From an uncultured Oscillospiraceae bacterium (GTDB taxonomy: Bacteria; Bacillota; Clostridia; Oscillospirales; Acutalibacteraceae), in contig UQRL01000034.1 of assembly GCA_900543555.1 (NCBI GenBank), positions 1-27,014 on the forward strand: a DNA stretch of 27,014 bases, written 5' to 3'. Shown here one piece after another: positions 7,740 through 26,536 of the stretch. Within the stretch, counting starts at the first letter, position 1. Each line of letters opens with the position of its first letter. The notes under the pieces are model-generated. The model was not told the DNA's origin and searched no databases. It saw only the letters and a list, made by a program, of their open reading frames with translations. A program made the translations under genes and the position numbers.

Positions 7740-8462
7740 ATGGATAGGGAACGGACGCAGAGCCGCATCGAGAGATTTTTAGACCTGTACAAACAGCTGG
7801 AGGACGAGCTGGAGGACAAGTACCGCAACGCGCGGAGGCATTACTCCAGCGTGGTGTTCGAGTTCATCCGGGATGAGGACAGCGCCCCGGTGCGGGACCA
7901 GCTGGAGACCTGTCGGGAGATCCGCAACCTGCTGACCCACAGCGCCAACCTGGGGGGAGAGCCCATTGTGGAGCCCTCGGCCCCGGTGGTGGCCGCCATG
8001 GAGGAGGTGCTGAATTTTGTCCGCAAGCCGCCCCTGGCCCTGGATTACGCCACCAAGTGGGACCAAGTGATGAAGGCCCACCTCCATCAAAAGGTGCTGC
8101 GGCTGATGGAGGTCATGGACAAAAACGGCTATTCCCACATTCCCGTTTTGAACGACGGGGAGTTCTGCGGTGTGTTCAGCGTGGGGGCTGTGTTCCAGTA
8201 CATTCTGCGCACAGGGGGGAAAGGCATCAAGCCCGAGACCACGGTGGCCGAGCTGGGGCGCCATATCCAAGTGGACGCCCACATGGAAAATTACGATTTT
8301 GTCCCCAAGGATGCCACCTATCTCTCTGTGCGGCGGAAGTTTGAAAAGGTGCGGGGCAAAAACAAGCGGATTTCCGTGATTTTTATTACGGAAAACGGCA
8401 AGCCCGGCGAGCGGGTCCTGGGCATGCTCACTCCCTGGGACGTGCTGGGCGAACCCGATTGA
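7740..8462 (+). CDS. HEPN-like/CBS domain fusion protein
   Basis: From ATG 7740 (AGACGGGGGA upstream) the product has 240 residues; ATG 7719 in the same frame is an alternative start. Residues about 1-95 are all-helical and contain CREIRNLLTHSA, in which R62-N63-x3-H67 fits the Rx4-6H signature of HEPN domains. Residues about 100-240 look like a CBS pair: first half SHIPVLNDGEFCGVFS, second half RISVIFITENGKPGERVLG then MLTPWDVL. CBS pairs usually bind adenine nucleotides, so a nucleotide-gated HEPN protein is conceivable but unproven. It closes the comEC-holA gene run and is followed by a strong terminator. Confidence 0.82.
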   Translation: MDRERTQSRIERFLDLYKQLEDELEDKYRNARRHYSSVVFEFIRDEDSAPVRDQLETCREIRNLLTHSANLGGEPIVEPSAPVVAAMEEVLNFVRKPPLALDYATKWDQVMKAHLHQKVLRLMEVMDKNGYSHIPVLNDGEFCGVFSVGAVFQYILRTGGKGIKPETTVAELGRHIQVDAHMENYDFVPKDATYLSVRRKFEKVRGKNKRISVIFITENGKPGERVLGMLTPWDVLGEPD

Positions 8463-11882: not shown

Positions 11883-12320
11883 GGACCAAGTGCAAGCCCC
11901 TCTCCCTTTGGGAGAAGCACCAGATTGACCAGTTCGTCAACGCCATCCTGGAAAAGATGGACCTTTCCCAAACGGATGAAGAGCTGCGCCAGTGTGCCTG
12001 GGCCGCGTTCCTGTCCGTTTTCCGGGAGGACCCGCGGCGCTTCCCGCTGGAAAGAAGTCTCCCTGGAGCGCCCGGTGAGTGTGGAGGTTCCGCTGCCCCT
12101 GTCCCAGCTGCTCCAGCAGCCCCACGGGGATTTTCAGGCCAGCGTGTGCTTTCACGAGTTTCTATACCACCTGGAGCCGGATGTGCGGCATATGGCCTAC
12201 GGCATCATCCACGGCGACACGCTGGAGGAGATGCGGCGCAGCCGCCTTTGGAGCTGCGAGCACGCCGGCCGCATCTATGAACATCTCCGCCAGGGGATGG
12301 AGGAATATGTAAAAAGCTGA
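11879..12320 (+). pseudogene. Frameshifted sigma-70-like gene
   Basis: GTG 11879 sits 6 bp after a strong AAGGAGGAG site. The first frame reads SLWEKHQIDQFVNAILEKMD and EELRQCAWAAFLSVFREDP, reminiscent of sigma region 2, then loses sense near 12050. The sense continues one frame on as VSLERPVSVEVPLPLSQLL and later YGIIHGDTLEEMRRSRLW, which resembles the region 4 helix-turn-helix, ending at TGA 12318-12320. One extra base in GGAAAGAAG (12049-12057) would explain the break; removing it restores a 146-residue product. No slippery heptamer is evident, so I read it as an indel (true mutation or sequencing error). The sigma assignment is tentative. Confidence 0.5.
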
Positions 12321-15194: not shown

Positions 15195-15331
15195 GAAACT
15201 CCCTCCTTGGCTGCCGCTGGTTTGCTGTGTTGGGGAAATTCCTAGACCAAGGAGCGTGCTCTCTTCCGGAGAAAGGGAGGACCTCGTGGGGCGGTGGATG
15301 GAATGGCTCCTGAAGCAGCGAATCTGCTGGT

Positions 15332-15340
15332 ATTGTAGCA
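15332..15340 (-). promoter_or_regulatory. Extended -10 promoter candidate for the small gene
   Basis: The minus strand reads TGCTACAAT (15340-15332), a TGn-TACAAT extended -10, with no good -35. It implies a leader of about 130 nt before the ATG at 15194. Confidence 0.5.
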
Positions 15341-15456
15341 TGAATAAAAGGCGCTGTTGGGCGAAAAATGTCGAAATGCCCACAATTTCCTTGGACGCGG
15401 CTGTTCCGGCAGGGCTTTTCCGGTGGAGAGCCGCCGGATGAGGCGGCAAACCCAGC

Positions 15457-15485
15457 TTGCTCTCGCCGCGGGGACGTGATACAAT
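15457..15485 (+). promoter_or_regulatory. Sigma-A promoter of the LytTR regulator
   Basis: TTGCTC (15457-15462), a 17-bp spacer, and an extended -10 TGATACAAT (hexamer 15480-15485). Transcription should begin near 15492, so upstream frame starts such as TTG 15457 lie outside the message. Confidence 0.85.
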
Positions 15486-15540
15486 AGTATTTATCATCAT
15501 TAGCCGCAAGGGTTGCTCTGAGAAAGGAAGGCGATCTCCG

Positions 15541-16248
15541 ATTTACCGCGTTGCGATATGTGAAGATGAAGCGCCCATTCGGGAAGCGCTTTTACAGATG
15601 TGCCGGGAGCTGCTTTCCCAGCTGGCGCCGGAGCATCAGGTGGAGGCGTTTGCCTCTGCCGGAGAGCTGGCGCAGTCTTTGGCAGACGGCGCCCCGTTTG
15701 ACCTGCTCTGCCTGGACATCCTGATGGAGGGCCAAAACGGCATGGAATTTGCCCAGAAGCTGCGGGAGGAAAACGAGCGCATCAGCATCCTCTTCATCAC
15801 GGGCAGCAGTCAATATCTAAAGGACGGCTATTCTGTCCGGCCCATCCAATACCTGTTCAAGCCCGTCCAGCGGGAGGAGCTGGAGGATGCCCTGCGAACG
15901 GACCTGCGCCTGCACCACCGGCCCCGCACCTTGACGCTGCGTACCGGCAACAAGACCACGGTGCTCCCCATTCAGGATATCCTCTATTTGGAGAGCCAGA
16001 ACCACTGGGTTGTGGTGCACATGAGGGAGGGCCAGCAGACCTTCCGCAGCAGCCTGTCGGAAGTGGAGCAGCTGCTGCCCCCGGATCAATTCTGCCGCAG
16101 CCACAACAGCTATCTGGTGAACATGGCCTGGGTGGCGCAGACCGGCCGGAGAGAGCTTCTTTTGCAGGATGGCTCTCAGGTCCCGGTCAGCCGGGGGTAT
16201 TATGAATCCATGCAGCGCCAGTTTGTCCGCTTTCTAAACTTGAAATAA
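15541..16248 (+). CDS. LytTR family response regulator with apparent ATT start
   Basis: 235 residues if it starts at ATT 15541, nine bases after AAAGGAAGG. This gives the family-like opening MYRVAICEDE; no ATG, GTG or TTG in frame lies between the mapped promoter and this point. The receiver domain (about 1-120) has acidic E8-D9, phosphoacceptor D59 in LLCLDILMEGQNG and the switch lysine in YLFKPV. The LytTR DNA-binding domain (about 135-235) contains ILYLESQNHWVVVH, FCRSHNSYLVNM and QVPVSRGYYE. It is AgrA/VirR-like, activating genes by binding direct repeats. Its probable kinase is the convergent, truncated gene next to it. Confidence 0.92.
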   Translation: MYRVAICEDEAPIREALLQMCRELLSQLAPEHQVEAFASAGELAQSLADGAPFDLLCLDILMEGQNGMEFAQKLREENERISILFITGSSQYLKDGYSVRPIQYLFKPVQREELEDALRTDLRLHHRPRTLTLRTGNKTTVLPIQDILYLESQNHWVVVHMREGQQTFRSSLSEVEQLLPPDQFCRSHNSYLVNMAWVAQTGRRELLLQDGSQVPVSRGYYESMQRQFVRFLNLK

Positions 16249-16297
16249 AGCCATCCCGATGAGCGTTCCCGCCTTTCGGGGTGGCCTTTCCTGTTTT

Positions 16298-16334
16298 ACA
16301 GCCCTTCCGGCCCCGGCCGGGAGGGCTGTGCTTT
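16298..16334. terminator. Shared terminator of the convergent two-component genes
   Basis: ACAGCCCTTCCGGCC (16298-16312) pairs with GGCCGGGAGGGCTGT (16315-16329), a 15-bp stem with one wobble and a 2-nt loop, then CTTTT on the plus strand. It fills the gap between the regulator stop (16248) and the kinase stop (16335). Confidence 0.75.
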
Positions 16335-16928
16335 TCAGGCTTTAAGGGCTGTCTGTACCGTAAAACGGCCCTCCTCCCAGCTCACATCCAGCACGCTGTG
16401 GTATTTTTCCGCCACGGCCCGCATCTGGGATAGCCCAAAGCCATGGCCCTCCTCCCGCTTGGTGAAGAGCAGCCGCCCCTTCTCATCCCGCTTCAATTCG
16501 CCGCTAAAGGTGTTCTCACACTGGATGGCCAAAAAGCCCTGGGATAGGGTGAGCTTGCACCAGACTTCTTTGGGCTCCGCCTGGCTGGCGGCCTCCAAGG
16601 CGTTGTCCAGCATGTTGAGCAAAAGGGCGCACAGGTCCTCCTCGCGGATTTCCACCTCTGCCGGAATGGACGCCTGGGCATGGAAGACCACCCCCATGGC
16701 CGCGGCTTTGGCGGCGCTGTTCTGCAGGATGGCGTTGATGGCGAAGTGCTGGGCGTAGGTTTTGGGGGACAGGTGCTCCAAAGTTCCCTCCAGCTCAGAG
16801 AGCCTGGCGCCCAAGGCGTCCAGTTTCTTTTCCCCCAGCATCAGGCGCAGCGCTGTAACCTGGTTTTTCCACTCGTGGCGCATCAGGTCTGTCCGTTGGT
16901 TCTGCTCTAAGATGTTCTGATAGCGGGC
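16335..16928 (-). CDS. Histidine kinase, GHKL/AgrC-like, N-terminally truncated
   Basis: Only about 198 C-terminal residues remain. They begin RYQNILEQNQRTDLMRHEWK: the dimerisation helix with the phospho-accepting His in MRHEWKNQ, typical of LytTR-linked kinases. The N-box follows as LNMLDNALEAASQ, the G-box as GHGFGLSQMRAVAEKY. Membrane sensor segments that should precede residue 1 are absent. Upstream of about 16928 the frame stays open by chance but is antisense to the surface-protein gene, so the 749-residue reading is false. It would phosphorylate the adjacent LytTR regulator but lacks its sensor, start codon and promoter here. Confidence 0.85.
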   Translation of the reverse strand, partial: ARYQNILEQNQRTDLMRHEWKNQVTALRLMLGEKKLDALGARLSELEGTLEHLSPKTYAQHFAINAILQNSAAKAAAMGVVFHAQASIPAEVEIREEDLCALLLNMLDNALEAASQAEPKEVWCKLTLSQGFLAIQCENTFSGELKRDEKGRLLFTKREEGHGFGLSQMRAVAEKYHSVLDVSWEEGRFTVQTALKA

Positions 16929-18797
16929 TATTACTTTGACGAAGCGGACTCCTACGCCCAGTGGAGCAGTTCTATAAACGACCGGCTGAAGCAGACGGTG
17001 GTTCTGGACGTGGTGGCCGGCAACTTTGACGGCAACGATGAGGGCCGGGAGCAGATTCTCTGTGTGACGGGCCTGGAAAAGTATTATTATCAGTACGAGA
17101 GCTACTCCAAGCTGTACTGTATCTATAACACAGGCGGCGGGACAAATGAGGACGGCAGTGTGGCGGAAGACAGCTGGGCCTGCAGCGAAACGGAGAATTA
17201 CCTGTTCAAGTCGAAAAAGCCCTGCTATATCACAGTGGCCGCCACGGACACCGGGGATGACAGCACCATTGTCGCCCTGAACCGGGTGGACCGCACCTAC
17301 AGTGAGCCCGGTGTGCTGGCTGTGCTGGAGGCGCCCCCCTATTTCCGGGAGATCGGCGACGGCGACACGGGCAACAGCCAGACCGTATATGGCACCACCA
17401 GCACCTCTGGCTCGGGCTACAGCAACAATGTGGGGTTTAGCGCGGGCATTACCTTTGGATATGAGGCAGACACCCTCCTGGGAGGGGGCGGCTGGGAGGT
17501 CACCATTGACAACAGCTTTAACTGGGGCTTTGCCAATACCACAGAGGTCTCCTTTTCCACCAACTTTGCCAACGACACCGGCGACAACCTGGTGGTGGTC
17601 TACCGCAGCCCGGTGGTGGGCTATGAATACTTGGATCAGGACGGGAACGCCCTGACGATCACCAAAACGGGCCTGCCCGCCGTCAACATGATCCCTGTAG
17701 AGGATTACAACGAAGCGGTGGCCCAGTACACCTCGAAAAATTTGGACCCCATCCTGGACGGCCTGCTGAGCAGCCCCGGAGACCCCCAAAGCTACCGCAG
17801 CACCACCGAGGGCCTGGATGAGGCTGTAGAGGGCTCCAGCGATTCTAACCCCAGCTGGATCCAATACAGCGGGCAGGGCACAGTGGAACAGAGCATTGAA
17901 ACCACCCAAACCAGGGAAAACGACTTTACCTATGAGCTGGATATCCAGGGAAGCCTCTGGGGCAAGGTGTTTGGTGGCAAGCTGGGCGGGCAGGCCGGCG
18001 TACAGTATTCCCACGGGATCTCCTGGTCCTCGGGCCAGGGCACGCTGATGTCCGGCTCTGTCACCGGCCAGCAGGAAACCGGCTATGACTTCCAGTGGAG
18101 GTTCGCCACCTGGACCACGCAGCTCAATGGGTCCGATGTGCCTGTGCTGGGGTATCTGGTGCGGGACGTGGTGGCGCCGCCCTCCCCCGGCGCCAACCTG
18201 CAGGTTTCCCATGTGAGCGAAACCACCGCCACCATCACCTGGGAACCGGGGACCCGCTCCTCCCAGCAGTACCGAATTTACCGCTTGACAGATGATGGCG
18301 TCTATGTGCTGGTGAGCGCGGTCAGCGGCAGTACCTATGAGTACACCTTGAGCGGGCTCCTTCCAGGAGAACCCTACACCTATGTGGTGCGGGGCGTGGC
18401 CTATGAGGAGGACGGAGACGAGCAGGAGTCGGTGGACAGTTCCCGCTTGACGGTGATGACACGCTCGGAAAACGCCGCGGATGTGGAGGTTCTGCTTTTC
18501 GGAGCGCAGGACGATGGGAGCTACCCCACCAGCGGCGCGGAAGTGAACCTTTCCGTGGAGGCCATTGTGACGGCGGACTACCAATACAACACCAGCTATC
18601 AGTGGCAGATCCTCCGGCCCGATAACTGGAAGGACGGGATCTCCAACTGGACAAACCTATCGGCCAGTGAAGAGGGGATCGAATCGGTAGAGGTTGACAA
18701 AAACAGCCTGCGTCTCACAGGCTTGGACAGCTCTTTGGACGGCGCGAGGCTGCGCTGTAGGGTGACCGTCCCCACTTCAGACGCCACCCCCAACTAA
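16926..18797 (+). CDS. Giant surface protein, N-terminal piece (5' missing, ends at premature TAA)
   Basis: Open in frame from just after a TAA at 16908, but with no start codon, ribosome site or signal peptide: the 5' end is lost at a junction with the kinase gene. The first readable residues include VVAGNFDG, reminiscent of FG-GAP-type repeats. A glycine- and threonine-rich amphipathic beta stretch follows (GFSAGITFGYEADTLLGG and later FANTTEVSFSTNF), of a kind seen in pore-forming proteins, though this is not diagnostic. A fibronectin type III domain spans about 18180-18460 (ATITWEPGTRSSQQYRIYRL) and an Ig-like domain follows. TAA at 18795 stops it in the same frame as the downstream piece. 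GTG 16998 is formally the first start codon but not believable. Confidence 0.8.
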   Translation, partial: GYYFDEADSYAQWSSSINDRLKQTVVLDVVAGNFDGNDEGREQILCVTGLEKYYYQYESYSKLYCIYNTGGGTNEDGSVAEDSWACSETENYLFKSKKPCYITVAATDTGDDSTIVALNRVDRTYSEPGVLAVLEAPPYFREIGDGDTGNSQTVYGTTSTSGSGYSNNVGFSAGITFGYEADTLLGGGGWEVTIDNSFNWGFANTTEVSFSTNFANDTGDNLVVVYRSPVVGYEYLDQDGNALTITKTGLPAVNMIPVEDYNEAVAQYTSKNLDPILDGLLSSPGDPQSYRSTTEGLDEAVEGSSDSNPSWIQYSGQGTVEQSIETTQTRENDFTYELDIQGSLWGKVFGGKLGGQAGVQYSHGISWSSGQGTLMSGSVTGQQETGYDFQWRFATWTTQLNGSDVPVLGYLVRDVVAPPSPGANLQVSHVSETTATITWEPGTRSSQQYRIYRLTDDGVYVLVSAVSGSTYEYTLSGLLPGEPYTYVVRGVAYEEDGDEQESVDSSRLTVMTRSENAADVEVLLFGAQDDGSYPTSGAEVNLSVEAIVTADYQYNTSYQWQILRPDNWKDGISNWTNLSASEEGIESVEVDKNSLRLTGLDSSLDGARLRCRVTVPTSDATPN

Positions 18798-21700
18798 TAT
18801 TACAGCGATGCCGTTACGCTGGAGATTTCTCTGGACAGCACGGAAACCTCTCTCAGCCTGAGCGGCAGCGCAGCTGGTAGTGGCAGCCTGGACGATCCCT
18901 ACACAGGCAACGCCGGGTACAGCATTACCACTACAACCAGCACTTCCGGTGAAGTGGAACAGGATGTGGCCATCCCCGCTGGAGAAAGCCATCCCGCCCT
19001 GAAGGTGTATTCCTACACCGCTAGTGAAGGAAATGCCCCTGTCTATGTGGGCGTGGGCACCGATGAGGGCGAGACCGTGTATTATGCGGTTACAAAAACA
19101 GAAACGGCAGAGGGCAGCGCCGCGTATTCTGTGGGAGCAAAGCTGGAACTGGGCGGCACGAAGTGGGTTAAGGCCACTGCCAGCGGAAGTGGCACCGAAG
19201 AGTATACGGTGCCGGAGGGATATGATGGAACCATTGAAACCGACCCCTCTACTGGCTACCGGCGCATGGCACTGGTAAAAACAGAAGATAGCTCCACCAC
19301 CTTTACGGAATATTGGATGTCTGTGCCCGCAGGGGATGAGGAAACCGCTGTGCAGTATTTTACTAAAGAAGACGGCGGGACCTTTAAAATTGTCACCTTG
19401 ACAGAGAATGAGGAAGAAGCTCTGCGCTATGTATATGTGGGCAGCGGTGAGGGAGTTCTGATCGTCAACGCCGCGGAGGAAGGTTCTGACGGCCCCGGCG
19501 CGGACGATGACCGCTATGTTACCTACGCAGTGAGCGGCGGCGCTCTTTCTGCCCCCACGGTGTTCTGGGGCGAGGCGGATACGGGCCTTTACGCCACGGA
19601 CGGAGAAGGGCAGGAAACTCTGTACGCCGGCAGCACCGGCCTGACGGTGGAAAGGGAGACGGTTACACAGGAGCAGACCGGCACCACAACCGCCTCTTAC
19701 GGCGGTACAGAGATCATCGTGGCCGCGAAGACTACGGTGGATACCAGCATCCTGTTTACCTTTGCCAACCTGACCACCGGCGGGTCGGAATCGGTGCAGG
19801 CCGGCGCGGATGGGAGGGCCACCTGGCAGGCGGCTGTCCCTGGGATGTACCGCATCACGGCCACCGCCCAGGCGACGGAGACCGCCGCCTCCAGCACCAG
19901 CGCCGCCCTGTACTACTACGCAGGGAGTGTCTCCGAAGGGGCTACAACTGAATACCGGTTGGTGGTGAGCAAAGGCAGCGCGCCCGCCTCTTCCATGGTG
20001 TACGACGGAAGCAGCGTGGCTTTGACTCTGCAGAGCCGTACAGCAGCAACCGCCAATGGCGGCACCGTGACCTCTCCCAGTGGTTCATGGCAGGATGTTG
20101 AGGACAATGTCTCTTACACAGTCCTGAACTTGAGCGGCAGCGATGAGGATGCGGCCGCGATAGAGGGCAGTGCCTATTATCGGCCCCAGGCAGCGGGGAC
20201 CTACCGCTTTACCGCCTCTCTTGGGGGAGTCCAAGTGGCCACGGCCCAGCTGGAAGTGACCCGGGCTGAGATTACCATTGCCCCCGCTTGGGAGGGGATG
20301 GAGGACGAAACCGTCCCCGCGGAACTGGACGATATCCAATTGACCGCAAGCGGCGGATTTTTAGAGGAGGACCAAGCTCTTTTGGAGCGGGCCATTGCAA
20401 TCCAATGCGGCTTGTATGGAAGCGATGGGGCCATCCGGGATGTGGGCGGCGTGTACGATGTGACTCTCAGCTATAAGAGCGATGGGGAGGGAGCCGCCGC
20501 GGCAGCGGAGCTTCAGAGCAAGTACAACATCACCCTGGAAAGCGGGGAGATTACCTACCTAAGCCATTCCGCGGTCGTCAATTATTCCGCTGGGGAAAAT
20601 GGAACGCTGCAGGCCCAGTATGTGGAGAATTCCGAGTACGGATTTGTCAGCGGGGCCTCCATTCCCGTGAGCTATGGGCTCCGCTTTGTTGCCACGCCTG
20701 CCGTTGGATTCCAGTTTGCGGAGTGGACCGTAACCCTGAACGGAACGGCCGTTGCATGGGAGGATGAGGCGCTCCAAGGTATTGTGACCTTTACCGAGAC
20801 AGAGAGCGCCGTGATCCTGCGCGTTTCCAGCCTGGAGGCGTTGATCCAAGCGGTCCAAGGGGAGAGCGAGGGCTCCGGCGAAGACGCGGCCCCTGTTTTG
20901 CAGGTGCAGGCCGCCTTTACCAGCCAGAACCGCACAGTGACCTTCTCTGCGGATGAATCGACGCCCAACGGCACTGTGACCGCCCAGCAGAACGGCCAGA
21001 GCCTGAACAGCGGCGTGTCCGTGGCCCACGGCAGCTCCATGACCTTTACCGCCACGCCCAACGAGGGGTATGTGGTAGAGAGCTGGGCTGTCAACGGCCG
21101 GGTGGAACAGAACCCTGACGGCACCCACTACACCGGAACCACTTTGGAGCGGGAGATCACCGAGGACACCGAGGTCAAAGTGACGTTCGCAGCCGAGGAG
21201 CAGTACGCTGTCTCCTATGAAGTCGTGGATGAAAACAACCAGCCCGTTTCGGGTGTGGCTGTCACCGTGGAAGGATTGACGGATGGCAAAGTGACCAAGG
21301 GCGGCAATGTAGCCTTTACCGCCCAGCCCTCTGTGGGCGTGGTGATCCAGCGGTGGGAGGTGCAGCGCGGCGATGGAGATTGGGAGACGGTCTCCGCCAG
21401 CGCCAACCGCTACACCCTGTACAACGTGCAGGCGGATACAAACGTCCGCATTGTGGCCAGCGGCGGCTCCAACCGTTACACGCTGACCTTTGGCGTGGTG
21501 GACGATACTGGTTCCCCTGTGACCGGCGGCACCTTGACAGCCACGTCCAATGGCGTCACGTTGGAAACCGGAAAGGAATACCCCTCTTACACGAATGTGG
21601 ACTTCACCTTTACAGAGGCTGAAGCCTATGAAGTGGTGGAATGGAAGGTCAACACAGATACGGTGCGGGAGGGCCGCGGCCAGCTCACCTACACCCTGGA

Positions 21701-24605
21701 GAACCCCTCTGCTGACACCACCGTCAACGTGGTGGTGCGGAAAAAGCCCTCTGTCACCGTTAAGGAAGTTTCAAACGGCACGGTTGATGTGACGTACACC
21801 TTGGACGGAGAAACCGTTCAACCCTCTGAGAACGGCTATGTGTACACCGGCACCGGCATTTCCGTTACGCTGGCGCCCGCTACCGGCTATGTGGTGGATG
21901 CCGGTGAAATGGAGGCAACATACGGTGTAGACTTGAGCTACACCAACGGTTCCGGCGCCACCACCGACAACATGACCTATACCCTTGACAATGTGCAGAG
22001 CGATGTGACGATTGCTCCCGTTTGGGAACAGCTTGCCGCCTACACCGTCGGTTACTATGTAGTGGACACCATTGGGGATGGCTCTGGCACGCATGGCGCC
22101 TTGTCCGCCTCTGTGGAGCGCAAGGGCATGGATAGCTATGAGAACAGCGAGTTTGTCAGTGGAAACACTGTCTACGACGGCTCCACCGCCACCTTTACTG
22201 CCAGCCCGGATAATGGCTATGTCGTGCAGGAGTGGCAGGTCGATGGCGAGGCGCAGGCAGGCGACACCAGCAACACGCTGACCCTGAGCGCGTCTGAATT
22301 GACGGCTGATACAACCGTTACTGTCCAGTTCCGCGAGATCGGCGACAAGGTCACCATCTCTGCGGGAGAAAATGGTGAAATCACCAGCGCCATCGCAGGT
22401 GGTGTGGACCAGATTGACAACATGGAAACCGGTTTTACCCTGGACGAAGGCGCGTCTGTAACCATCACCGCGCAGCCCGAGACGGGGTATGAAGTGGCTT
22501 CTTGGAGCGTCAATGGCGAGAGAATCGAAAATACGCAAGGGCAGAACACCTTCACCTACACGTCGCAGAGCGCAAATACCGGCGCGGCCATCTCTGTGGA
22601 GTTCCAGCAAGTGACCTATGCGGTCTCTTGGAGCGCTGCCGGGGGCACTGTCACGGCCGATGGTTACACCGGCACCAGCGCCGATATCCGGGGCGGCACC
22701 GAGGTGAGCTTCACAGCCGAGCCTGCTTACGGCTATGAGCTCACCGGATGGACCGTAAACGGCGAACCCCAGAATGGAGAAAGCGATGAAACCTTCACCT
22801 GGACCGTTCCCAACGGCCAGGCTGCGGACCCTGCTGTCTCAAGCTATCAAATCGAGGCGCTCTTTGAGCTGGTGGATACGGATTACACTCTGACCTATAC
22901 GGTTGCTGGTTCCGGCGGCACGATCTCTGTGCCCGGCGGCGAAAATGGGAGCGTTACCGTGTCCCATGGCGGCAGTATCACCTTCACCGGCGCCGTGCGC
23001 TATGATGTGAATTATGCTGTGGAAGGCTCCGGTGGTACTGTTTCGGCAACGGCAAACGGCGAGAGCATCGCCAGCGACACCACTGTGCAGGTGCTGGGCG
23101 GCAGCAAGCTGGTCTTTACCGCCGCGCCAGAGGAGGGGTACATGGTGGCCCAGTGGACGATGAACGGAGTAGCAATCTCCCGGGAGAACATGGGCCAGTA
23201 TGGCATGACCAATCCCTACGCAAAGGAGCTTGCTGTAGAGAGCCTCAGCGGAAACCTGGATGTGCAGGTCACATTTGAGGAATATGCGGGCTATGCTATC
23301 CCCACAGGTGATGCGGGCTACACGATCAAGAACATCGAGAGGAATCCCGATGACACAACGCCTGAGACTCAAATCCGAAAAGGCGGCGACGTGACCTTTA
23401 CCGTGGGGCTGAACGTGGAAGGCGGCTACGCCAACTTTAGCAAGCTGGTCATCAACGGCTATGACTGCCTGGAACAAACCGGGACTGCCACTGGCTGTGA
23501 CTCCGTCACCGCCACCCGCAACAGCGACGGCTGCTACACCGTGACCATCCAGAACGTGAGAGGCAATATCGATGCGGACATCGAGGCCCACCAGTTGGTG
23601 ATTGACGAAGGCTTAGAGGACTATGATATTCCTGACAGCCTAGAAAATCTGGAAATTGATACTCCGGAAGAAATTCAAACTCTTCTGAGCACGGCCATCA
23701 CTGGCAGCTATGACGGCATCACCTACATGGACATCGCCCTGATGTATTGGGACGGCGGCCAGTGGGTAGTCGTCACCGAAATGCCCGAAGGCGGCGTGGA
23801 TGTGGTCGTTCCGTATGATACGATCAATACGGAAGCCGCTTCCAACGACACCTTTACTGTGGCCCACATGCTGACCACAGGCGAAAATGCTGGTCAGGTG
23901 GACATTATCGAGGACGTGCGCAAGGAGTCCGACGGCCTGCACTTCCATGTAAACAGCCTGTCGCCCTTTGCCATCAGCTGGACCAAATATGAGGCGCCGG
24001 TCAATCCCGGCGGCGGCGGCACACCCTCCGAGCCGGAAGAGCCCACCTGGCCCTTCACAGACGTGACGGAAGGGGATGACTGGTTCTATGACGCCGTGGC
24101 CTATGTGTACGAGAACGGCATCATGGCCGGCACCGACGAGACCACCTTCGAGCCCTACATGGAGCTGGACCGCGCCATGGCTGCTCAGTTGTTCTACAAC
24201 CTGGAAGGCAAGCCCACCGTGACCGGCGACTCCACCTTTACCGACGTGACCTCCGGCCACTGGGCTGTGGACGCCATCACCTGGGCCGCCCAGAACGACA
24301 TCGTGGCGGGCATCGGCGGCGGCCTGTACGATCCTGACAGCAACGTGACCCGGGAGCAGTTCGCAGTGATGCTGTACAAGTACGCCCGCTTCAAGGGCTG
24401 CGACCTGACGGCTACTGGCGACCTGACCCAGTTCCCGGACGCTGGCTCCATCAGCAGCTGGGCGGAGACTGCTCTGAGCTGGGCCAACGGCAAGGGCCTG
24501 ATCAATGGCAACGAGGACGGCACCCTAGCTCCCGGCGGCACCGCCACCCGGGCCCAGGCAGCCAGCATTCTGGCCCAGTTTGATCAGAGTTTCGCAAACA
24601 AGTAA
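18798..24605 (+). CDS. Giant S-layer-anchored surface protein, C-terminal piece (B-repeats + 3 SLH)
   Basis: Same frame as the preceding piece, directly after the TAA, with sense immediately resuming (YYSDAVTLEISLDS); GTG 18954 is the first formal start but has no ribosome site. About 1,930 residues of beta-rich modules. From about 20690 to 23280 there are about nine B-repeat-like units ending in motifs such as GYVVESWAVNG, GYVVQEWQVDGE, GYEVASWSVNGE and GYELTGWTVNGE. The C-terminus has three SLH domains, about 24049-24215, 24230-24400 and 24420-24600, opening with FTDVTEGDDWFYDAVAYVYE, FTDVTSGHWAVDAITWAAQN and FPDAGSISSWAETALSWANG. It is a cell-wall-polymer-bound adhesin-type protein, ending at a strong terminator. 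Confidence 0.88.
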   Translation, partial: YYSDAVTLEISLDSTETSLSLSGSAAGSGSLDDPYTGNAGYSITTTTSTSGEVEQDVAIPAGESHPALKVYSYTASEGNAPVYVGVGTDEGETVYYAVTKTETAEGSAAYSVGAKLELGGTKWVKATASGSGTEEYTVPEGYDGTIETDPSTGYRRMALVKTEDSSTTFTEYWMSVPAGDEETAVQYFTKEDGGTFKIVTLTENEEEALRYVYVGSGEGVLIVNAAEEGSDGPGADDDRYVTYAVSGGALSAPTVFWGEADTGLYATDGEGQETLYAGSTGLTVERETVTQEQTGTTTASYGGTEIIVAAKTTVDTSILFTFANLTTGGSESVQAGADGRATWQAAVPGMYRITATAQATETAASSTSAALYYYAGSVSEGATTEYRLVVSKGSAPASSMVYDGSSVALTLQSRTAATANGGTVTSPSGSWQDVEDNVSYTVLNLSGSDEDAAAIEGSAYYRPQAAGTYRFTASLGGVQVATAQLEVTRAEITIAPAWEGMEDETVPAELDDIQLTASGGFLEEDQALLERAIAIQCGLYGSDGAIRDVGGVYDVTLSYKSDGEGAAAAAELQSKYNITLESGEITYLSHSAVVNYSAGENGTLQAQYVENSEYGFVSGASIPVSYGLRFVATPAVGFQFAEWTVTLNGTAVAWEDEALQGIVTFTETESAVILRVSSLEALIQAVQGESEGSGEDAAPVLQVQAAFTSQNRTVTFSADESTPNGTVTAQQNGQSLNSGVSVAHGSSMTFTATPNEGYVVESWAVNGRVEQNPDGTHYTGTTLEREITEDTEVKVTFAAEEQYAVSYEVVDENNQPVSGVAVTVEGLTDGKVTKGGNVAFTAQPSVGVVIQRWEVQRGDGDWETVSASANRYTLYNVQADTNVRIVASGGSNRYTLTFGVVDDTGSPVTGGTLTATSNGVTLETGKEYPSYTNVDFTFTEAEAYEVVEWKVNTDTVREGRGQLTYTLENPSADTTVNVVVRKKPSVTVKEVSNGTVDVTYTLDGETVQPSENGYVYTGTGISVTLAPATGYVVDAGEMEATYGVDLSYTNGSGATTDNMTYTLDNVQSDVTIAPVWEQLAAYTVGYYVVDTIGDGSGTHGALSASVERKGMDSYENSEFVSGNTVYDGSTATFTASPDNGYVVQEWQVDGEAQAGDTSNTLTLSASELTADTTVTVQFREIGDKVTISAGENGEITSAIAGGVDQIDNMETGFTLDEGASVTITAQPETGYEVASWSVNGERIENTQGQNTFTYTSQSANTGAAISVEFQQVTYAVSWSAAGGTVTADGYTGTSADIRGGTEVSFTAEPAYGYELTGWTVNGEPQNGESDETFTWTVPNGQAADPAVSSYQIEALFELVDTDYTLTYTVAGSGGTISVPGGENGSVTVSHGGSITFTGAVRYDVNYAVEGSGGTVSATANGESIASDTTVQVLGGSKLVFTAAPEEGYMVAQWTMNGVAISRENMGQYGMTNPYAKELAVESLSGNLDVQVTFEEYAGYAIPTGDAGYTIKNIERNPDDTTPETQIRKGGDVTFTVGLNVEGGYANFSKLVINGYDCLEQTGTATGCDSVTATRNSDGCYTVTIQNVRGNIDADIEAHQLVIDEGLEDYDIPDSLENLEIDTPEEIQTLLSTAITGSYDGITYMDIALMYWDGGQWVVVTEMPEGGVDVVVPYDTINTEAASNDTFTVAHMLTTGENAGQVDIIEDVRKESDGLHFHVNSLSPFAISWTKYEAPVNPGGGGTPSEPEEPTWPFTDVTEGDDWFYDAVAYVYENGIMAGTDETTFEPYMELDRAMAAQLFYNLEGKPTVTGDSTFTDVTSGHWAVDAITWAAQNDIVAGIGGGLYDPDSNVTREQFAVMLYKYARFKGCDLTATGDLTQFPDAGSISSWAETALSWANGKGLINGNEDGTLAPGGTATRAQAASILAQFDQSFANK
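20690..23280 (+). repeat. Array of about nine B-repeat-like protein modules
   Basis: The W-x-V-N-G core recurs near 20703, 21064, 21337, 21621, 21882, 22213, 22484, 22729 and 23137, that is every 245-410 bp. Each module has a G-T/S-V strand pair, then a FTATP-x-GY turn and a tryptophan strand, as in InlB B-repeat/Flg_new-like domains. Modules are diverged, so the duplication is old. Near 22885-23050 one module is cut short, adding to the largest spacing. Confidence 0.8.
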
Positions 24606-24620
24606 ACCTTTTGCATACAC

Positions 24621-24651
24621 AAAAAATGGCTTCCTTCGGGGGCCATTTTTT
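24621..24651 (+). terminator. Intrinsic terminator after the surface-protein gene
   Basis: AAAAAATGGC (24621-24630) pairs with GCCATTTTTT (24642-24651), a 10-bp stem closing an 11-nt loop, 15 bp past the stop. Confidence 0.9.
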
Positions 24652-24679
24652 GTTTTGTCACGTGGTAGCAGACCCCGAT

Positions 24680-24892
24680 TCTCCCACCCACCAAGGGGAG
24701 CACGAAATCCACTACTACGGCTTTGGCCGGCCCAGCTTCTGCAACTTCCGCAAGGAAGAGGGCGTTTCCTGGCGGGTGGAGGTCATCGACACCTGGGAGA
24801 TGACCGTCACCGACCTGGGTATCTTCTCCGCCAGCTTCCGGGTACCCCTGTCCGGGAAAGAGTACATGGCGATCCGACTGAGAAAAGTATGA
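24680..24892 (+). pseudogene. Remnant of a DUF5605-type glycoside hydrolase C-terminus
   Basis: A short frame ending at TGA 24890-24892 reads HYYGFGRPSFCNFRKEEGV, VEVIDTWEMTV and later SGKEYMAIRL. This matches the C-terminal beta-sandwich (DUF5605) that follows the TIM-barrel in DUF5060/DUF5605 glycosidases. The upstream catalytic part is absent, because the frame runs back into the terminator of the surface-protein gene. There is no start codon or ribosome site of its own. It is a gene relic, evidence that sequence was deleted between it and the surface-protein gene. The family match is from memory. Confidence 0.65.
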
Positions 24893-24893
24893 A

Positions 24894-24930
24894 AAAAGGG
24901 TCACCAACACAGTCCGGTGGTGGCCCTTTT
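24894..24930 (+). terminator. Intrinsic terminator after the hydrolase remnant
   Basis: AAAAGGGTCACCA (24894-24906) pairs with TGGTGGCCCTTTT (24918-24930), 13 bp with one wobble. It is the original terminator of the now-lost hydrolase gene. From here to 25071 I see no gene or clear signal. Confidence 0.88.
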
Positions 24931-25071
24931 CAAAATCAGAGGGACGAAGCAGCGCGCTTCGGATTGCGGAATTTTTCCCGATGGTTCACGAAAAATGGTA
25001 GAGGGTGCCGGAACATCCCCTTCCGTGCTTCCCAAAGCCCCTGAATTTCATTTCACACGCAAACGCGGGCA

Positions 25072-25931: not shown

Positions 25932-26076
25932 CGGGGACCACAAAAGTTTTTTTGTTCGTCAAAATTCGCCTTTTTTCGCGTGGAATTGGGTGTAAGCTAA
26001 AGAAGCCTTTTAAAGGCGCACGTTGTTCAAGTTTTTACAGGATGGAATACGCTATATTGCGTTTTTCCTGATATAT

Positions 26077-26267
26077 GCGCTCGTAGCTCAGCTGGATAGA
26101 GTGACAGACTCCGACGGTTCAGGCCGATTCAGTTGAGACATTCCGAAAAAGCCAGTGTTTACCGGGCTTTGCGGGCTCGGCGGAACGGAAAATTCCCGCC
26201 GTTGACTACTGTTTGACTACTATTTTTCAAAAGGTGACTACCGCATCTGCGGTTCTCATACATATTT
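26077..26267 (+). repeat. Partial tRNA-Arg repeat, unit 1
   Basis: Starts with 39 nt identical to the 5' half of the tRNA-Arg at 26460, ending exactly at the anticodon loop, then about 150 nt that match unit 2 with scattered differences. It cannot fold as a tRNA because the 3' anticodon-stem strand and T-arm are missing. Both units carry the block TTGACTACTGTTTGACTACT near their ends. Confidence 0.85.
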
Positions 26268-26459
26268 GCGCTCGTAGCTCAGCTGGATAGAGTGACAGAC
26301 TCCGACGGTTCAGGCCGTTTCAGTTGAGATATCCCGAAAAAGCCAGTGTTTACCGGGCTTTGCGGGATCGGCGGAGAGAAAAAATCCTGCCGTTGACTAC
26401 TGTTTGACTACTATTTTTCAAAAGGTTGACTACCGCTTCTGCGGTTCTCATATATATTT
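26268..26459 (+). repeat. Partial tRNA-Arg repeat, unit 2
   Basis: A second copy, 191 bp downstream of unit 1, with the same 39-nt tRNA half and a diverged copy of the same tail; the intact tRNA-Arg begins 192 bp on. Together the units form a short direct-repeat array upstream of the tRNA, as left by integration and excision of mobile elements. Confidence 0.85.
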
Positions 26460-26536
26460 GCGCTCGTAGCTCAGCTGGATAGAGTGACAGACTCCGACTC
26501 TGTAGGCCGCTGGTTCGAATCCAGTCGGGCGCACCA
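26460..26536 (+). tRNA. tRNA-Arg (CCG anticodon), CCA encoded
   Basis: Acceptor GCGCTCG/CGGGCGC (one wobble), D-arm GCTC/GAGT, anticodon stem ACAGA/TCTGT enclosing CTCCGAC (anticodon CCG), T-arm GCTGG/CCAGT around TTCGAAT, then A and CCA. It is complete, unlike the two partial copies upstream. Confidence 0.95.

Follow-up and report, generated by a model that had tools for sequence, protein, structure and literature searches.

The stretch of DNA analysed here (hereafter referred to as the window) comprises 27,014 nucleotides from an uncultured Oscillospiraceae bacterium and carries the remains of two genes that read away from a single point. On the minus strand lies the tail of a GHKL histidine kinase, adjacent to a convergent LytTR response regulator gene, and on the plus strand the middle and the end of a gene for a giant surface protein, the two remnants abutting head to head with no filler between them (Table 1). 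A head-to-head junction of two genes without 5' ends had been proposed near position 16925 by an earlier, sequence-only reading of the window; the junction is borne out by comparison with longer database proteins, which places it a few bases to the left.

Table 1. Features of the window around the join
Feature	Position	Strand	Basis
LytTR response regulator, apparently intact	15457..16248	+	PF04397, PF00072; convergent with the kinase
GHKL histidine kinase, C-terminal remnant (residues 358-552 of 552)	16335..16922	-	PF14501; identity to P0227, P0002
Join	16920..16924	.	Window codons against native proteins P0002 and P0127/P0128
Surface protein remnant, first part (from P0128 residue 497), one fn3	16923..18794	+	96-98% to P0125-P0130; PF00041
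In-frame stop	18795..18797	+	A residue at this site in all 13 near-identical entries
Surface protein remnant, second part (InlB-like repeats, three SLH stretches)	18798..24605	+	PF18998, PF00395; 94% to P0131
Downstream flank, short frame with DUF5605 match	24644..24892	+	PF18310 (E 9.2e-23); flank common with P0125

Both halves follow longer, near-identical proteins up to one shared point and no further. Read backwards, the match to the surface protein includes Ala-Gly at 16923-16928 and also the Ile codon at 16920; since positions 16920-16922 serve both as this Ile codon and, on the opposite strand, as a Tyr codon of the kinase, the overlap of the two genes (the bases that fit both parents) amounts to 1-5 bp, as judged from the native protein sequences and not from DNA. 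The DNA of the join is known from the window alone, a single sequence. When the chimeric antisense-kinase frame was used as the query, none of the 53 matches spanned the join, a result of little weight given that the entries are clustered at 90%. A promoter search for either half gave no sigma-70-like site in 15300-17300, against a mean of 0.6 in shuffled sequences. The region 16000-18200 matched none of 72,556 plasmid records searched for a plasmid origin, and the viral contigs held no stretch fitting the kinase or the surface protein patterns.

The kinase remnant (PF14501 match, E 6.8e-17) is nearly identical to the tail of native proteins that are considerably longer. From Tyr358, where the native kinase sequence in the window ends, to the C-terminus, it shares 191 of 195 residues with P0002 (552 aa; 4 differences) and 188-191 with the six entries P0002-P0007, all of 552 aa (4-7 differences). 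The tail of a further entry, P0227 (301 aa), equals that of the window (195/195), and its sequence upstream runs on into the native sequence held in common with P0002. The missing part of the kinase, residues 1-357 of 552, corresponds to 1,071 bp of coding sequence and includes the four hydrophobic stretches that a hydropathy script located in P0002; the same script found none in the remnant. The membrane sensor half is thus absent, as the sequence-only reading had held, and its further claim that the LytTR system was left with no sensor applies to this locus, although another copy may exist elsewhere in the genome. The earliest possible start in the remnant is an ATG at 16883, which would give a product of 182 aa with the His of the RHEWKN motif, presumably the phospho-acceptor, as its third residue. 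Two other kinase entries (P0229 and P0231) begin at the position of Val355, close to the join of the window, not at it.

Entries for the surface protein were obtained by way of P0122 of L001, an intact relative; the 7,979 candidates having most words in common with the query were scored, among proteins whose length was 0.55-1.75 times that of the query, and the 13 entries with at least 96% identity to the first surface part were taken as near-identical. Two of these, P0127 and P0128 (3,097 aa), have a hydrophobic signal-like start and match FG-GAP weakly around residue 200. Residue 497 of P0128 falls on the first surface position of the window (16923) and residue 499 of both proteins aligns with codon 16929; in the 622 residues that follow the join P0127 is 98% and P0128 96% identical to the window. 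Residues 1-495 of about 3,097 (approximately 1,485 bp), including the signal-like start and the FG-GAP region, are therefore missing, which bears out the claim that the surface protein has lost its start and signal peptide. Neither a signal peptide nor a continuous frame was found for the surface gene in the window. The in-frame stop leaves two surface ORFs, 16998-18797 and 18954-24605, the latter counted from its first start codon. Beyond the stop, the frame of the second part is open throughout to its end, with 94% identity to P0131 over 1,936 columns, and the C-terminal SLH domains are present as three stretches (E 1.5e-33). Among solved structures, 72 sequences were matched at E <= 1; the 60 listed all lie at or overlap the fn3 of the first part. 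The only possible surface starts in 16998-17250 are GTG codons, and by eye there is no evident ribosome site in the first 300 bases. Neither remnant therefore has a native start, the earliest candidates being internal (the ATG at 16883 and these GTG codons).

Eleven of the 13 near-identical surface entries begin at four internal places: the starts comprise two that are signal-like, three MNSDN, one MRTGG, five MVAGN and two MGFSAG. Short entries by themselves are not proof of truncation, as gene callers may pick internal starts. Five entries (P0131-P0135) begin at the equivalent of the codon at 17010, at most 30 codons from the join, and since the longest contigs behind them measure 65, 25, 248, 116 and 17 kb, respectively, contig ends cannot account for all five starts. 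P0135 and the window alone have two residues, at first-part positions 329 and 580, that are absent from the other entries of the 13. P0131, P0132 and the window share an internal deletion in the repeat region together with the marker NMGQYGMTNP; the other 11 entries have neither, and P0126 and P0127 among them have no repeat stretch. The simplest reading of these sequences is that one truncated allele circulates in the species. The first part has 20 informative sites, at which P0131-P0135 do not form one group; this speaks against such a reading and makes recombination or separate origins possible. Their frames, although without a signal peptide, are open over 2,102-2,546 residues, which is odd for an old pseudogene.

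The regulator has clear matches to both of its domains (PF04397, E 3.3e-21; PF00072, E 7.1e-15), its true start probably lying inside the ORF given in Table 1. On the other side of the surface gene, the downstream flank could be compared with P0125, which lies on a contig of 200,689 bp. The C-terminal extension of P0125 matches the window at 24570-24662 (94%) and 24760-25041 (96%), and P0125 therefore appears to come from the same chromosomal place. On the upstream side it runs some 320 residues past the join position; the locus is thus polymorphic and, as far as the surface gene goes, appears to exist at that place without the deletion. The DUF5605 frame directly after the surface gene resembles the tail of a lost gene; in P0125 part of it is read in a different frame and lengthens the surface protein. 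Further downstream, the 5' half of tRNA-Arg(CCG) occurs in each of two repeat units, spaced by 191 bp, that directly precede the intact tRNA-Arg, so that 26071-26536 holds three copies of this half gene; the units may be scars of elements once inserted within the tRNA gene.

Gene order was examined in related loci. Regulator and kinase are convergent in eight of the nine loci matching both queries (L037, L041, L043, L047 and L049-L052, of which L050-L052 are close orthologues of one another and not independent, and L049-L052 have remote kinases of 25-32% identity); L039 is the exception. L042, L044 and L048 have a kinase match with no regulator match, and the L053 kinase shares its strand with an ORF showing no match to the regulator query. 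Full-length forms of both genes, which the sequence-only reading proposed to look for in relatives, are present among the database proteins (P0002-P0007; P0127 and P0128), and divergent starts of a kinase and a large surface or secreted protein were found in related loci. At L037 the kinase ATG at 8097 (minus strand) and the ATG of an SLH protein at 8325 (plus strand) are separated by 227 bp, with a ribosome-binding-like sequence, as judged by eye, before both; at L048 a plus-strand kinase start at 12242 and the minus-strand start of a giant secreted protein at 12059 are 182 bp apart. In L042 and L047, too, the kinase and an SLH or giant gene are divergent. The SLH neighbours in L037 and L042 match the surface protein of the window in the SLH region only and the neighbour in L047 gave no match, so these divergent neighbours are of the same gene type and are not established as orthologues. 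The two genomes of L047 and L048 belong to another order (that of G001), and in both of them one giant secreted protein family is divergent from the kinase. In L041, L043 and L044 the kinases are intact and have other genes alongside, the gene for a large secreted protein lying one gene further in L044.

Among 398 genomes sampled from a single family, the nearest as judged by AlaRS is G793 (88%). A kinase match at E <= 1e-60 was found in three of the 398 genomes, with a best identity of 41%, and P0127 matched none of the 29 genomes of the genus of G793 at E <= 1e-80, in a search that had no positive control. Around the aminopeptidase gene, L038 (G861) and L040 (G793) have no regulator or kinase match, and L039 (G862) has another kinase (34% identity) and another regulator (32%), with an SLH match near them; the module is therefore patchy.

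These observations are most probably explained by a single deletion that took the divergent promoter region and both N-termini and left two 5'-less pseudogenes; among the origins that the sequence-only reading had offered for the junction this is the best supported, given the longer versions of both genes and their divergent order in relatives. In the ancestral state two neighbouring genes would have been transcribed divergently, one on the minus strand for a sensor kinase of the LytTR type and one on the plus strand for a giant secreted SLH surface protein, an adjacency which for this very species is taken from the relatives, no same-species contig with the kinase beside the surface gene having been seen. 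One deletion of roughly 2.8 kb would then have removed the region between them, taking the promoter region common to both, the kinase's sensor half and surface residues 1-495; the size comes to about 2.7-2.8 kb because the spacer is assumed to have been as in L037 or L048. The remaining ends would have been joined without filler at the 1-5 bp overlap, perhaps by microhomology, leaving the two pseudogenes beside an intact LytTR regulator, and the stop codon in the surface gene was probably gained later. Both remnants are presumably non-functional, and the regulator would be without a sensor at this locus.

The same arrangement would result if the contig were chimeric, two parts of one genome or of two strains having been joined at 16922 during assembly, and the short overlap and the occurrence of the join in one DNA sequence, with no protein entry spanning it, agree with this. 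A study of spontaneous rearrangements deduced an 8-bp overlap for true deletions (PMC3411829); set against that value, an overlap of at most 5 bp means that the join itself cannot tell a deletion from a chimeric ligation. An assembly artefact is nevertheless improbable, because five surface entries from other assemblies, on contigs of up to 248 kb, begin within 30 codons of the join, because P0135, P0131 and P0132 have features in common with the window, and because a random join is not expected to hit two genes of the neighbouring type in the correct orientation. An inversion endpoint, with one side flipped and the missing N-termini elsewhere in the chromosome, would with a single breakpoint also yield two head-to-head genes without 5' ends, and some short inverted pairs do occur here: a perfect 11-nt pair (16749-16759/16951-16961) and an imperfect 17-nt pair (82%; 16787-16803/17315-17331) straddle the join, and a 19-nt pair (89%) has one arm at 16720-16738, about 180 bp from the join, and its partner at 11937-11955. 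The window has two inverted pairs of at least 18 nt, but neither has an arm at the join. Moreover, the usual convergent order of regulator and kinase in relatives indicates that the left side is apparently unflipped and makes an inversion unnecessary, and the downstream flank of the surface gene is that of P0125. An inversion is accordingly disfavoured and very unlikely.

It is also conceivable that selection maintains the truncated ORFs as functional genes, one for a soluble kinase and the other for an expressed fragment of the surface protein. The kinase remnant keeps the possible phospho-acceptor His and the ATPase domain in an open frame, and P0131-P0135 maintain their 2,102-2,546 open codons with no signal peptide. 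Against these stand the absence of a promoter-like site and of a signal peptide, surface starts confined to GTG codons with no evident ribosome site, and the stop codon in the surface copy of the window, and continued function is very unlikely.

Damage to the 5' ends of such genes is not confined to the window. Near-identical kinase entries comprise six of full length, six that are shortened or frameshifted (P0009, P0227-P0231) and two that are partial (P0248, P0270), although the contigs of P0227 and P0270 are short (2,188 and 818 bp, respectively) and their ends may account for these two entries. At L037 the kinase sequence is spread over two frames and contains a stop, and its SLH gene occupies several frames; the L042 kinase is spread over three frames, the SLH gene there being divided into three ORFs. 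The kinase of L047, beside a giant gene, is without about 150 N-terminal residues, which its L048 relative has up to the end of the contig, and the giant genes of both loci are split into several ORFs. In the four directly divergent loci (L037, L042, L047 and L048) the big gene is therefore split in all four and the kinase damaged in three; the intact kinases of L041, L043 and L044 are not directly beside such a gene. A counter-pattern is provided by the remote kinases of L049-L053, which are open over 433-553 aa; in L050-L052 a large exported protein is encoded on the same side, a few genes away. The pattern was spotted after the fact, in few loci and mostly in draft assemblies, and part of it could be due to assembly errors in these drafts and to the starts that gene callers choose. 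That loss of the 5' end is a recurrent, possibly selected off-switch for a linked kinase and surface protein, with the 5'-less frames kept as a reservoir, is accordingly a speculative and rather doubtful proposal.

Some further observations concern the damaged kinases. In L047 the N-terminus of the kinase is lost at the shared start region, in parallel to the window. P0009, P0230, P0231 and P0248 have a common altered C-terminus produced by a frameshift within the ATPase domain, which adds a second kind of damage to this kinase. In P0248 (169 aa) a foreign start, which we take to resemble that of a tyrosine integrase, is fused in frame to the middle of the kinase; it looks as if a mobile element or an assembly join hit the same kinase elsewhere.

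The genes of the window may be compared with known systems. Kinase and regulator of LytTR/GHKL systems are usually encoded in one operon. We take the kinase and the regulator of the window to be of this two-component type, resembling AgrC/AgrA; a GHKL ATPase kinase adjoins a LytTR response regulator as in those systems, but the two genes are convergent and the kinase is without its sensor half. The surface protein has the fn3, the InlB-like repeats and the C-terminal SLH domains of the giant SLH proteins of Clostridia (P0122 of L001, P0123 and P0128), from which the copy in the window differs by the missing residues 1-495 and the internal stop. Microhomology deletions in bacteria, as described in PMC3411829, likewise remove less than 5 kb and join the ends directly at a few shared bases; the overlap in the window is shorter than the value given there. 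Judged by titles or the beginnings of abstracts, none of the papers listed in the literature searches deals with such a locus.

As a single event, the deletion represents mostly ordinary gene decay. Its immediate consequence is a correction to the annotation, in that the regulator has no working kinase alongside and neither of the large ORFs begins at a native start. The recurrence of N-terminal damage is the mildly interesting part and deserves a second look; if true, the locus would be a natural case in which a giant surface protein and its probable sensor are repeatedly lost or switched as a pair.
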